In this document: one piece after another, positions 19,423 through 45,391 of the stretch | How positions within the stretch are numbered: position 1 is the stretch's first letter | Layout of the letters: each line of letters opens with the position of its first letter | Virus record (IMG/VR): IMGVR_UViG_3300021963_000207 | Coordinates: 1-47,358 of that record | Direction: 5' to 3' (one strand) | Source: a virus | DNA length: 47,358 bases | Translations under genes and position numbers: made by a program | Notes under the pieces: model-generated | What the model saw: the letters and a program-made list of their open reading frames with translations, nothing else | Databases searched by the model: none | What the model was told of the DNA's origin: nothing

Positions 19423-19430
19423 TATTTATA
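19423..19430 (-). promoter_or_regulatory. T4-type late promoter for speD, touching tRNA-Leu 3' end
   Basis: An exact TATAAATA on the minus strand. Its first two bases are the last acceptor-stem base and the discriminator of tRNA-Leu. The speD TTG start follows 25 bases later. Confidence 0.7.
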
Positions 19431-19512
19431 GGGACGGGGGGACTTGAACCCCCACGGGCTTGCGCCCAACAGATTTTAAGTCTGGTGTGTCTACCACTTC
19501 CACCACATCCCC
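19429..19512 (-). tRNA. tRNA-Leu (anticodon TAA)
   Basis: An 84-base class II tRNA folds with acceptor GGGGATG pairing to CGTCCCT (allowing two G-U pairs), D arm GTGGTGG...TAGACAC, anticodon stem CCAGA/TCTGT around loop CTTAAAA (anticodon TAA), a long variable arm TTGGGCGCAAGCCC, and T arm GGGGG-TTCAAGT-CCCCC. No CCA is encoded. It reads UUA/UUG, a frequent codon class in this AT-rich phage. It lies between a sigma70-type promoter and speD. Confidence 0.95.
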
Positions 19513-19555: not shown

Positions 19556-19628
19556 TGCAGGTTGTGGGGATCGAACCCACCTTGGCCGCTTTATGAGAAC
19601 GGTGCTTTCGCCAGAGAGCTAAACCTGC
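19556..19628 (-). tRNA. tRNA-Met (anticodon CAT)
   Basis: A 73-base tRNA has acceptor GCAGGTT/AACCTGC, a short D stem GCT/AGC, anticodon stem CCGTT/AGCGG with loop CTCATAA (anticodon CAT), variable loop CCAAG, T arm GTGGG-TTCGATC-CCCAC and discriminator A. It could be elongator Met, or Ile-type if the C is lysidine-modified by the host. The G1-C72 pair and lack of three G-C pairs flanking the anticodon argue against an initiator. No CCA is encoded. Confidence 0.92.
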
Positions 19629-19872: not shown

Positions 19873-19901
19873 ATTGTAGCACACCTTGCCTGAGCTGTCA
19901 A
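19873..19901 (-). promoter_or_regulatory. Sigma70-type promoter upstream of the 61-aa gene and tRNAs
   Basis: TTGACA (19896-19901), a 17-base spacer ending TGC, and TACAAT (19873-19878) on the minus strand. The -35 box is flanked by an inverted repeat, GAGCT-TGAC-AGCTC. It lies in the gap between the end of gp5 and the 61-aa gene. Confidence 0.8.
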
Positions 19902-19911
19902 GCTCTTAATA

Positions 19912-32794: not shown

Positions 32795-33760
32795 GCTTCT
32801 GCAAGTAAAGATTATACTCAACCTACAGGATTGGATAGGAAAGATTTATATTGGCCTAATACAAAAGATCTGCACGATCTGCTAAGAATTGACATCGTAG
32901 AATATCTTCCAATATCACGTTCTAGTGTTGGACAAAATACTAAGCTAGAATTCATTACTAATATTCAACAGGAAAATACAATACTTGATAGATTTGAAGG
33001 AGGATCTAAACCAAGAAACAGAAATACTTTATCTACTGTATTATTACCAATTCCAAATGATATAAACTATTCAGATCAATTAACATGGGACAATGAATCT
33101 CTTGGAATTCTAGGAAAAATGGCTCCAGCTTTAGCAGGAGGAGCATTAACAGATCAATCTGGTCTTGGCAGCAAATTATCTCAGTTAGCATCAAGTGGAA
33201 CTCCAGAAGTTATTTTAAGTGAGATAGGAAAAGTTGCTACATTTTCACCTTCGGCTCTCACTCAAGGAATTGGAGGAAAAATTTTAAATCCATATCAAGA
33301 ACAAATTTTCAAAGGAATCGCAATGAGAGATTTTAATTTCTCCTGGAAACTTGTTCCAAGAAATGCCATCGAGCAATCCAGAATTCACGGGATCATAAAA
33401 AATTTAAGGTTTTATTCTCTTCCAAATTATAGTTCAAGAGCAGGAGTTTTTCAAGATAATGCAACTCAAGATGTTCCAACAAATAATTTATCTGATAGAT
33501 GGCTAAGTGTTCCTCACATCTTTAATTTAAAATGGGTTCAAGCTGGAACTGATAGCACAACTATACAATCACTTCCAAAAATAAAACCATGTGTTTTAAA
33601 AAGTGTTACTGTAAATTATACCCCTGATAATGTATGGGCAACTCATATTTCCACATCATCAACAGGCTTAAGTGGACCTGCACCAGTTGCATATGAGTTA
33701 AGTCTTAACTTTACTGAAACTGAAATCATTACTGCAAACGATGTATCAGGAGGATATTAA
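32792..33760 (+). CDS. 48: Baseplate tail-tube cap gp48-like
   Basis: The 322-aa protein aligns by eye with T4 gp48 (364 aa) in several blocks: LSTVLLPIPND (T4: IANILLPRSKSD), FNFSWKLVPRNAIEQSRIHG (T4: KVFTWDLTPRSTEDLMAI), RFYSLPNYSS, and near the end KPCVLKSVTVNYTPD followed by YELSLNFTETEIITANDV (T4: ITMREIITLNRA). gp48 caps the baseplate dome and carries gp54 and the tail tube. It starts a two-gene plus-strand unit, divergent from gp4, and is followed by gp53 after two bases. Confidence 0.85.
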   Translation: MASASKDYTQPTGLDRKDLYWPNTKDLHDLLRIDIVEYLPISRSSVGQNTKLEFITNIQQENTILDRFEGGSKPRNRNTLSTVLLPIPNDINYSDQLTWDNESLGILGKMAPALAGGALTDQSGLGSKLSQLASSGTPEVILSEIGKVATFSPSALTQGIGGKILNPYQEQIFKGIAMRDFNFSWKLVPRNAIEQSRIHGIIKNLRFYSLPNYSSRAGVFQDNATQDVPTNNLSDRWLSVPHIFNLKWVQAGTDSTTIQSLPKIKPCVLKSVTVNYTPDNVWATHISTSSTGLSGPAPVAYELSLNFTETEIITANDVSGGY

Positions 33761-39457: not shown

Positions 39458-39715
39458 TTACTTTTTCTTTTTAGGTTCTTTTGGTTCTACTCCCCAAAGT
39501 TTGGGATTGACCTTACCATCGGTCCAACGGATGTCTTTCAAACCTTCACGGTACTTGTCCCAGTACATATCGAAGATCTGAGCCCGTTTGTTACATACTA
39601 TTATATCATACCTTGTTTGGTTGTCAACCTCATAGGTGACTAGATAAGAATTCAGTGGTAGTGTTTTGTCTTTTGCTAGATCTCTACTGCAATCTTGATG
39701 TACGATTTTACACAT
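39458..39715 (-). CDS. Hypothetical protein (85 aa)
   Basis: I do not recognise a function. The protein starts MCKIVHQDCSRDLAKDKTLP and has a central YLVTYEVDNQTRYDIIVCNK strand-like region, then helix AQIFDMYWDKYREGLKDIRW and a very basic C-terminus (EPKEPKKKK). It looks like a small nucleic-acid-associated protein, but only by charge. Its coding sequence contains a good promoter candidate (39600-39627). It is separated from the DUF6433-like gene by one base. Confidence 0.65.
   Translation of the reverse strand: MCKIVHQDCSRDLAKDKTLPLNSYLVTYEVDNQTRYDIIVCNKRAQIFDMYWDKYREGLKDIRWTDGKVNPKLWGVEPKEPKKKK
39600..39627 (-). promoter_or_regulatory. Internal sigma70-type promoter candidate upstream of thyX
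   Basis: TTGACA (39622-39627), a 16-base spacer ending TGA, and a perfect TATAAT (39600-39605), inside the 85-aa gene and about 145 bases before thyX. It would boost thyX and downstream phoH/gp33/gp59 over the upstream part of the operon. Confidence 0.5.
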
Positions 39716-41484: not shown

Positions 41485-42182
41485 ACAATAACCTTGATAA
41501 GAATATGTTTTGATGTCATTCTTCCTGTAGGAGTTTTTGGTTTTGTAGTTAAATGCTTTTGAATATTATCGACATTAAACTTACTACAAGAAATAACTTC
41601 CGAAAGGAATTGTTCTGGTTTTCTTAGTGTGCGAACCCAAGATTTGTCTGAATCAAATCCATCAACCATAGTGCGACGAACTGTTAAAGATCTGCCAGTA
41701 TAATAACAGAGTTCTCGCTTCTCTACATTATAAAGAAAGACATGCTTGGAACCAATGATATCTGTTGCAGGAAGAGGCTTGTAAGTTGCACTATCAAATA
41801 CCAATTCTTTATCGTATAATGTGACAAGTCGAACTAATTTTTCGGGAGTAATTCGACGCTTTTTGCGAATAATCTTTTTGGCATCTTTATACGAATACAG
41901 ATCATCTACAATCTGATTCAAAAGTTCTCTGAAATCACGAAGCTCTGGACGACGAAAATTGGAGTATGCTTCTTTAACTACAGGATCTTCTCCATCTAAT
42001 GCAAGAGAAATTTCTTCAATTTGCTCAGTAACAAATCCAAGTTTGCTCTCAACAAAATCATTGATAGTTCTACGATCAATATCTTCGGAACGAAGAAACT
42101 GCGTGAAACTAGCTTTAGGCTTTTTGCGAGTTATTACAAAATCATCAATAATGGTGTCGATAAATGCAGCAATTTCACTCAT
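41481..42182 (-). CDS. Conserved hypothetical protein (233 aa)
   Basis: No domain is recognised. The protein is helical and highly charged in the first 120 residues (KKPKASFTQFLRSEDIDRRT, AKKIIRKKRRITPEKLVRLV), then has a beta-rich part (HVFLYNVEKRELCYYTGRSL) and a C-terminus rich in Lys/Thr. It lies between glutaredoxin and a 55-aa gene with four-base overlaps at both junctions. A nucleic-acid-binding role would fit its charge, but is not shown. Confidence 0.65.
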   Translation of the reverse strand: MSEIAAFIDTIIDDFVITRKKPKASFTQFLRSEDIDRRTINDFVESKLGFVTEQIEEISLALDGEDPVVKEAYSNFRRPELRDFRELLNQIVDDLYSYKDAKKIIRKKRRITPEKLVRLVTLYDKELVFDSATYKPLPATDIIGSKHVFLYNVEKRELCYYTGRSLTVRRTMVDGFDSDKSWVRTLRKPEQFLSEVISCSKFNVDNIQKHLTTKPKTPTGRMTSKHILIKVIV

Positions 42183-42415
42183 ACTAGATTGTTCTCCTTT
42201 AGATACGAAATAGTTTCAGTACAACCACCAACTAAAGTGTCATCAATTAACACTCGGGGGAAAGTGGAACCTTCTCCAAACTCAGCAACAAAATTCTCCC
42301 TAGTGAAGTGTTCATTAAGTTTGCGCTCAACAAAATTTAAATTGATGAGATTGAATACCTGTTTAATTTTTTCGCAGTAAGGACAGTCTTCCTTACTATA
42401 GATCGTAATTTTCAT
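42179..42415 (-). CDS. grx: Glutaredoxin
   Basis: The 78-aa protein is a complete small glutaredoxin: beta strand MKITIYSK, CPYC active site at residues 11-14, the TFPRVLIDD cis-Pro segment and the C-terminal VGGCTETISYLKE glutathione-binding motif. It would reduce ribonucleotide reductase or other disulfides with glutathione. It is the first gene of the long minus-strand replication operon, driven by the promoter at 42438-42466 just upstream. Confidence 0.93.
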   Translation of the reverse strand: MKITIYSKEDCPYCEKIKQVFNLINLNFVERKLNEHFTRENFVAEFGEGSTFPRVLIDDTLVGGCTETISYLKENNLV

Positions 42416-42437
42416 GTCCGATTTGAATCACGTACCT

Positions 42438-42466
42438 AGTATAGCAAAAAAAGAGGGGCTTGTCAA
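42438..42466 (-). promoter_or_regulatory. Sigma70-type promoter for the glutaredoxin-to-gp59 operon
   Basis: TTGACA (42461-42466), a 17-base spacer ending TGC, and TATACT (42438-42443) on the minus strand. The -35 box is in the middle of the terminator hairpin at 42455-42471, and the T-run of that terminator is inside the spacer. Confidence 0.8.
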
Positions 42467-42471
42467 GCCCC
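42445..42471 (-). terminator. Rho-independent terminator after the 53-aa gene, containing the next promoter's -35
   Basis: GGGGCTTGACAAGCCCC folds into a GC-rich stem with a tiny loop and is followed by TC and seven T's on the minus strand. It starts seven bases beyond the stop of the 53-aa gene. Confidence 0.8.
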
Positions 42472-42477
42472 GTCTGG

Positions 42478-42639
42478 TCAGAATTTTTTAAACATCCATT
42501 TAAGTTTAATGTAGTTGAGTTGCAGAACAATCAAGAAGTAGCTGATCTTTATAGTAATCCAATCCAATACATTTGGATCTGCGATACACACGTATACAAC
42601 AATAATTGAAAATAAACTTAGATATATTTGAAGTTCCAT
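42478..42639 (-). CDS. Small hydrophobic membrane protein (53 aa)
   Basis: A 53-residue frame opens MELQIYLSLFSIIVVYVCIA, a membrane-spanning stretch, followed by DPNVLDWITIKISYFLIVLQ, a second hydrophobic segment, and a basic end (IKLKWMFKKF). Its ATG overlaps the stop of the 61-aa gene by one base (TAATG). I recall similar short two-helix proteins in T4-like cyanophages, often near glutaredoxin; function unknown. Confidence 0.65.
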   Translation of the reverse strand: MELQIYLSLFSIIVVYVCIADPNVLDWITIKISYFLIVLQLNYIKLKWMFKKF

Positions 42640-44143: not shown

Positions 44144-44172
44144 AAAAAACCACCTACTCATTGTAGGTGGTT
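44144..44172 (-). terminator. Rho-independent terminator after psbA, containing the next promoter's -10
   Basis: AACCACCTAC-AATGA-GTAGGTGGTT is a perfect 10-bp stem followed by further T's on the minus strand, 22 bases beyond the psbA stop. Confidence 0.85.
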
Positions 44173-44188
44173 CGGAAAGATTTGTCAA
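44160..44188 (-). promoter_or_regulatory. Sigma70-type promoter for the 223-aa gene operon
   Basis: TTGACA (44183-44188), a 17-base spacer, and TACAAT (44160-44165) on the minus strand. The -10 spans the 5' arm end and loop of the psbA terminator hairpin. Unlike the other 17-base-spacer promoters, it lacks TGC before the -10. Confidence 0.65.
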
Positions 44189-44193
44189 GTACC

Positions 44194-45273
44194 TCAGCCG
44201 ATAGCTGGTGCAGTGAGAGCAACAGGAGTTGCACTAGCAGCAGCAAGGTCAAGAGGGAAGTTGTGAGCGTTGCGCTCGTGCATCACTTCAAAACCGAGGT
44301 TAGCACGGTTGAGGATGTCTGCCCAAGTGTTGACCACACGACCGCTGCTATCAAGCAACGACTGGTTGAAGTTGAATCCGTTGAGATTGAATGCCATAGT
44401 GCTAACACCTAGAGCAGCAAACCAGATACCCACAACAGGCCAAGCGGCAAGGAAGAAGTGCAGTGAACGTGAGTTATTAAAGGAAGCATATTGGAAAATA
44501 AGACGACCAAAGTAACCGTGTGCAGCTACGATATTGTAGGTTTCTTCTTCTTGTCCGAACTTGTAACCATAGTTTTGGGACTCGGTTTCAGTAGTTTCAC
44601 GAACGAGTGAAGACGTAACCAAGCTTCCGTGCATAGCACTAAAGAGGCTGCCACCAAATACCCCAGCCACACCGAGCATATGGAAAGGATGCATGAGAAT
44701 GTTGTGTTCTGCTTGGAAGACGAGCATGTAGTTAAACGTGCCCGAGATTCCGAGAGGCATTGCATCACTGAAGGAACCTTGACCGAAAGGATAGACAAGG
44801 AAAACTGCAGAAGCAGCGGCAACAGGAGCACTATAAGCAACACAAATCCAAGGACGCATACCCAAACGATATGAGAGTTCCCACTCTCGACCCATGTAAG
44901 CATAGATACCGATTAGAAAATGGAAAACAACCAGCTGGAAAGGACCGCCGTTGTACAGCCACTCATCGAGGCTGGCAGCTTCCCAGATGGGATAGAAGTG
45001 AAGTCCAATTGCATTGCTTGAAGGAACAACAGCACCAGAAATGATGTTGTTTCCATACATTAGAGAGCCAGCAACTGGTTCACGAATACCGTCAATATCG
45101 ACGGGTGGTGCAGCAATGAAAGCAACAATGAAACAAATAGTAGCGGCGAGAAGGGTAGGAATCATTAGAGTTCCGAACCAACCGACATAAAGACGGTTAT
45201 CGGTAGAAGTTACCCACTCACAGAATTGTTCCCAAGTGTTACTTCCACGCTGTTGAGCGATGGATGTAGTCAT
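44194..45273 (-). CDS. psbA: Photosystem II D1 protein
   Basis: D1 is the reaction-centre core that turns over fastest in light; the phage copy keeps photosynthesis running during infection. The start is the ATG at 45273 ([17 protein letters not shown]), giving 359 aa; a longer frame to 45387 reads through the promoter. Expected positions are intact: Glu130 (the high-light form residue), Tyr161, Asp170, Glu189, His190, His198, His215, Ser264, His272, His332, Glu333, His337, Asp342 and the Ala344 processing point, followed by a 15-residue extension ending LTAPAIG. There is no intron. The gene looks richer in G+C than its neighbours, as expected for a host-derived gene. It has overlapping early and late promoters and its own terminator. 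Confidence 0.98.
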
Positions 45274-45338
45274 AGTTTTAAAAGAACGTAAAGGTTTATT
45301 AAAAAGTATGTGAAGGAATGTAACGTTCCCTCGCAACT

Positions 45339-45346
45339 TATTTATA
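45339..45346 (-). promoter_or_regulatory. T4-type late promoter for psbA
   Basis: An exact TATAAATA on the minus strand that shares three bases (TAT) with the -10 of the sigma70-type psbA promoter, 65 bases before the ATG. Confidence 0.65.
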
Positions 45347-45372
45347 GTAGCACGGATTGTTGCGGCTGTCAA
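45344..45372 (-). promoter_or_regulatory. Sigma70-type promoter for psbA
   Basis: TTGACA (45367-45372), a 17-base spacer ending TGC, and TACTAT (45344-45349) on the minus strand. The -35 is flanked by the dyad GGCT-TGAC-AGCC. Confidence 0.8.
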
Positions 45373-45391
45373 GCCCCTCCAGGACAAGATT

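Follow-up and report, generated by a model that had tools for sequence, protein, structure and literature searches.

An intergenic element that joins a terminator-like hairpin to a sigma-70-like -35 box in a T4-type cyanophage contig

Locus and anatomy of the element

The contig that makes up the window (the whole stretch of 47,358 nucleotides analysed here) comes from an uncultivated T4-type cyanophage and has psbA on the minus strand, with T4-type replication genes farther along the same strand. The element under study lies in a 62-base gap between the stop codon of a 53-aa ORF, the last of a small-gene operon, and the ATG of a glutaredoxin gene (Table 1). By Pfam, the genes that follow on the same strand encode glutaredoxin, a product of unknown type, T4 RNase H, DUF6433, ThyX and PhoH, with gp59 and gp32 farther on; given this content, the term "replication operon" used in the initial annotation is fair but loose. 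The 233-aa downstream protein had one relative in viral_contigs, and a DNA similarity search with 1,570 bases around the element returned no match among named phages. Within an 85-aa ORF upstream of thyX, a 12/12 sigma-70 promoter match with a spacer of 16 was found at 39600-39627 (minus strand). An Rfam scan of the window reported two tRNAs only (19429-19512 and 19556-19628); upstream of both genes, at ~19880-19907 on the minus strand, is a promoter-like site that has its -35 in a small hairpin and carries no T-run.

Table 1. Features of the element and its surroundings in the window
Feature	Position	Strand	Remarks
psbA	44194-45387	minus	
Promoter match TTGACA-17-TACAAT after psbA (second terminator-promoter overlap)	44147-44188	minus	-10 inside psbA terminator hairpin
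psbA terminator	44173-44147	minus	overlaps strong promoter match by its -10
Last small ORF of upstream operon, 53 aa	42478-42639	minus	stop at 42478; shared by relatives
Terminator stem-loop GGGGCTTGACAAGCCCC, 7 bp, loop GAC	42471-42455	minus	stem compensated in relatives
-35 box TTGACA, inside hairpin	42466-42461	minus	invariant in 8/8 distinct aligned elements
T-run TCTTTTTTT, within promoter spacer	42454-42446	minus	predicted RNA 3' end near 42447
-10 box TATACT, preceded by TGC (extended -10)	42443-42438	minus	predicted start near 42431
Glutaredoxin (nrdC-like), first gene of downstream operon	42179-42415	minus	Pfam PF00462, E 3.6e-12; gene order conserved

The hairpin, the T-run, TTGACA, a 17-base spacer and TATACT preceded by TGC are all present and placed exactly as the initial annotation had them. 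The GC-rich stem-loop is followed directly by the T-run, as in an intrinsic (Rho-independent) terminator, and the two hexamers form a predicted sigma-70-type promoter (TTGACA, 16-18 bases, TATAAT-like hexamer) with 11 of 12 matches and TG before the -10. The operons on either side are co-directional, and the terminator of the first shares bases with the promoter of the second. The hairpin RNA has a predicted folding energy of -12.8 kcal/mol, which 200 dinucleotide shuffles place at a z of -3.34. The whole window was also shuffled 60 times with dinucleotide content retained and searched for a stem around a -35 (at most 1 mismatch) with a T-run and a -10; one such element is observed, while the strict form (stem of at least 6 bp, at least 4 GC) occurred in none of the shuffles and a looser stem (5 bp, 3 GC) occurred at a mean of 0.033 per shuffled window. 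Promoter-like matches as such are frequent in this AT-rich DNA (49 found in the scanned region vs 40.4 expected). Between 37000 and 47358 three sigma-70 matches score 11 or 12 of 12, among them the element and the site at the psbA terminator.

Relatives at the glutaredoxin gene

Relatives were gathered by a glutaredoxin search, which gave 80 viral loci. The order small genes, glutaredoxin, 233-aa gene is common to L002-L012 (eleven loci), L185 and L021, and the same composite of hairpin, T-run and promoter stands before the glutaredoxin ATG in L002-L009, L011 and L185. After removal of identical copies, 8 distinct elements including that of the window were aligned over 38 columns. TTGACA is constant in all of them and the surrounding stem varies: three of the 7 stem pairs are altered on both sides, and 89.3% of cells are still paired. 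Of 500 shuffles, 6 equalled or exceeded the covariation score of 0.276 (shuffled mean 0.142), and all slid versions stayed below it; the rows behind this score are few and related, and L010, L012 and L021, present in an earlier alignment, are excluded from the count. The window itself loses paired cells in the common frame because its hairpin is shifted by one base from the other rows and two extra T-A pairs close the GAC loop.

The composite is dispensable in near relatives, as its losses indicate: L010 and L012 retain the -10, but TTGACA and a clean hairpin are gone from both; L021 has neither. Just upstream of glutaredoxin in L018 (match at 2501), TTGACA lies in a hairpin (GACAC...GTGTC) with TATAAT 17 bases on and no T-run; this site is possibly a promoter with a hairpin and not a terminator.

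Regions upstream of glutaredoxin were also classed with a finder that misses degenerate hairpins (as in L010/L012 and L017). By this finder, 66 distinct regions comprised 9 with a terminator and the -35 in its hairpin, 27 with a terminator and then TATAAATTA about 10 bases on, 3 with a terminator only and 27 with none. The TATAAATTA regions belong to more distant relatives, and their hairpin loops are sequences such as TTTAT or GAAA, with no TTGACA. The motif ATAAATTA is similar to NATAAATA, given in PMC2984593 as a late promoter of S-PM2. A terminator is thus paired with a promoter-like box in both groups, and TTGACA occupies the loop only in the group with a sigma-70-type -10. This contrast is the clearest indication that retention of the loop serves the promoter. 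The relatives provide the strongest evidence overall, and from their sequences the loop seems to be preserved for the promoter and the stem for the terminator. The earlier proposal of a shared terminator/promoter element holds at the level of a dual signature seen by comparison (stem compensated, TTGACA invariant, TTGACA absent before the late-type promoter).

Recurrence and comparison with known elements

Viral contigs were scanned with a hairpin-blind pattern (TTGACA, 5-9 bases, six T, 1-4 bases, TATRNT), and the left flanks were permuted among sites to give a null for hairpin enrichment. Among the matches listed, 46 of 123 distinct viral sites enclose TTGACA in a hairpin of 6 bp or more with 3 GC or more (null mean 8.20, max 14), and 40 of 123 do so in one of at least 7 bp with 4 GC (null mean 3.08, max 8). 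Genomes of bacteria and archaea, scanned in the same way, yielded 4 and 1 of 119 sites among the matches listed (null means 0.49 and 0.03). Both sets, the 123 viral and the 119 bacterial/archaeal sites, are samples made up of the matches listed, in which related phages are possibly counted repeatedly. The 46 composites among the matches listed have a spacer of 17 in 38 cases, stand close after a same-strand stop codon in 36 and lie inside a long same-strand ORF in none. A T4-type cyanophage reference was the best match for 37 of 45 loci with composites, against 26 of 75 without (again among the matches listed).

Whole genomes were counted by detected terminators that contain a -35 (at most 1 mismatch) with a -10 at 16-18. 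Composites made up 7 of 10 detected terminators in Enterococcus phage VD13, 4 of 7 in Lactococcus phage phiL47, 3 of 21 in P-SSM2, 2 of 28 in S-SRM01, 2 of 25 (one doubtful) in the relative G001, 1 of 21 in S-PM2 and 1 of 7 in the 47-kb window. None was present among the detected terminators of Syn9 (0/16), T4 (0/28) or RB49 (0/34, in 150,000 of 164,018 bases). Control hexamers gave mean counts of 0.03 to 0.42. Some of them equal the observed count in VD13 (max 7, mean 0.117) and phiL47 (max 4, mean 0.250), and these high-scoring hexamers presumably hit the composites themselves, read in a shifted frame.

In VD13 (L408, 31000-55726) the composites punctuate the replication gene region; pattern matches at 32817, 35355, 40766, 43736, 46461 and 54118 all fall between co-directional genes, in gaps of 72 to 148 bases. 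S-SKS1 and phiL47 likewise have their elements between genes of one direction. The match in S-CREM2 starts within the end of an annotated gene, and the gene annotated next to the S-SRM01 element is on the opposite strand. An exact-pattern search alone gave no match in S-CRM01, S-SKS1 or S-CREM2, with weak similarity matches in the latter two. VD13 and phiL47 resemble the window in having the -35 in the hairpin, the T-run in the 17-base spacer and then the -10; they differ in being unrelated phages of unrelated hosts with many copies per genome, and their matched stretches carry no annotated feature.

The promoter-early stem-loop (PeSL) cassettes of the papers of Arbiol et al. in 2010 and Comeau et al. 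in 2014 are reportedly recombination sites in shuffling regions, with several copies per genome. They are elements of T4-type phages, described in a citing text (PMC4503421), and of the named kinds they come closest to the window element. Like them, and as in RB49 examples, this element combines a sigma-70-like or early promoter with a stem-loop inside one short gap between co-directional genes. Among 113 promoter-like sites of RB49, a hairpin was found in the spacer at 10, around the -10 at 8 and around the -35 at 1; RB49 hairpins thus fall mostly in the spacer or around the -10, whereas the window hairpin encloses the -35 and is followed by the T-run, which makes this a different geometry. 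Unlike the several copies of PeSL, the window has a single composite among its detected terminators and G001 has the two counted above. Membership of the window element in PeSL was rejected on the differing -35 hairpin geometry and the single copy.

Overlap of a terminator with a promoter is itself already known. At Salmonella tufB-secE (Brandis et al. 2019; PMC7055797), the terminator of one operon overlaps the promoter of the next, co-directional one, as here, with reported effects on expression and fitness; that case is on a bacterial chromosome and is compared by its description. In phiX174, an unrelated small phage likewise compared by description, an overlapping intergenic promoter-terminator element is said to decouple neighbouring genes (PMC9135205). 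No -35 box in a terminator loop was described in the literature searched, and since most subscription journals lie outside that search its absence is not proven; within the same literature, the form with the -35 in the loop, the stem compensation and the recurrence appear to be new.

Interpretation and alternatives

The element is probably dual-use punctuation, a terminator and a sigma-70-like promoter that share bases, with termination and initiation at the positions predicted from sequence. RNA of the small-gene operon would form the hairpin and be released at the T-run. A host-type (sigma-70-like) holoenzyme would bind TTGACA in the same DNA together with the extended -10, and the glutaredoxin/RNase H/ThyX operon would initiate downstream of it. 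As the new transcript would begin after the hairpin, the terminator would not act on it. Selection would retain the -35 function of the loop, and in the stem any GC-rich sequence would do as long as its arms are complementary.

Another reading keeps a single real signal, either a terminator in which TTGACA arose by chance or a promoter whose hairpin is fortuitous. This is very unlikely: both RNA ends are predictions and consensus matches are common in this DNA, but TTGACA is invariant within a compensated stem, it is missing from the regions with a late-type promoter, and hairpins are enriched in the viral sample among the matches listed. The inverted repeat could instead be an operator for a dimeric DNA-binding regulator, since its arms form a perfect palindrome about a centre close to the -35; yet a T-run follows it, it stands just after a stop codon, and its arms vary among relatives with pairing kept, a pattern more in keeping with pairing in RNA than with recognition of a fixed sequence. 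The operator reading was rejected on this stem compensation and is considered highly improbable.

If the element is dual-use punctuation, some mutual exclusion between upstream termination and promoter use is physically expected, since a polymerase stopped at the T-run, its active site near 42447 by rule, would cover the promoter. Release is predicted ~16 bases ahead of the predicted start, a distance below one polymerase footprint. The initial annotation proposed interference, arriving polymerases occupying the promoter until release and so holding down the downstream operon while the upstream one is active. The idea draws on that spacing and is possible but doubtful, for termination at the T-run also spares the promoter from read-through occlusion, and a released polymerase could have the opposite effect: according to PMC6978380, E. 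coli polymerase in vitro can remain bound to the DNA once intrinsic termination has occurred and start again from a promoter downstream, in 37% of termination events or 55% with added sigma. A hand-over, in which polymerase released at the T-run would be recaptured by the promoter beneath it so that the upstream operon feeds the downstream one, draws on the same geometry, on those in vitro figures and on the repeated occurrence of the design, in most cases with a spacer of 17 among the matches listed. It is nonetheless unlikely, as compaction alone explains the overlap and the enzyme would still need to move ~16 bp and to carry or regain sigma. The sign of coupling between the two operons cannot be read from sequence.

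It is quite unlikely that terminators with the -35 in the loop evolved repeatedly in phages of unrelated hosts as polymerase relay stations. If they did, the enzyme released by one operon would be caught within one footprint by the next promoter, a single polymerase could thus walk a chain of short operons, and VD13 would be a genome wired largely in this way. The many natural copies in these phages bear on the choice among space saving, blocking and polymerase passing, and natural variants, with or without TTGACA in the loop, separate the terminator and promoter roles. Under dual-use punctuation, the same stretch of DNA would serve the operon on one side as an RNA structure and its neighbour as a protein-binding site, a compact and testable arrangement that separate promoter and terminator finders would miss as a single unit.

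The overlap is economical, is preserved in related viruses and is also present in other phages, and compaction of intergenic space is most likely its driving force. The psbA junction (44188-44147) carries the second overlap of Table 1, which does share the -10 hairpin geometry of RB49. The same geometry, with a different stem, occurs at the psbA junction of L021. In L002, L004 and L005 the -35 spans the psbA stop codon as T-TGA-CA, and the -35 of L135 also includes that stop codon, but its paired -10 is weak. Stop codon, terminator and promoter are therefore interleaved in several ways in these phages, which favours space economy as a common cause. The promoter match at the psbA junction of the window is possibly the promoter of the upstream small-gene operon.
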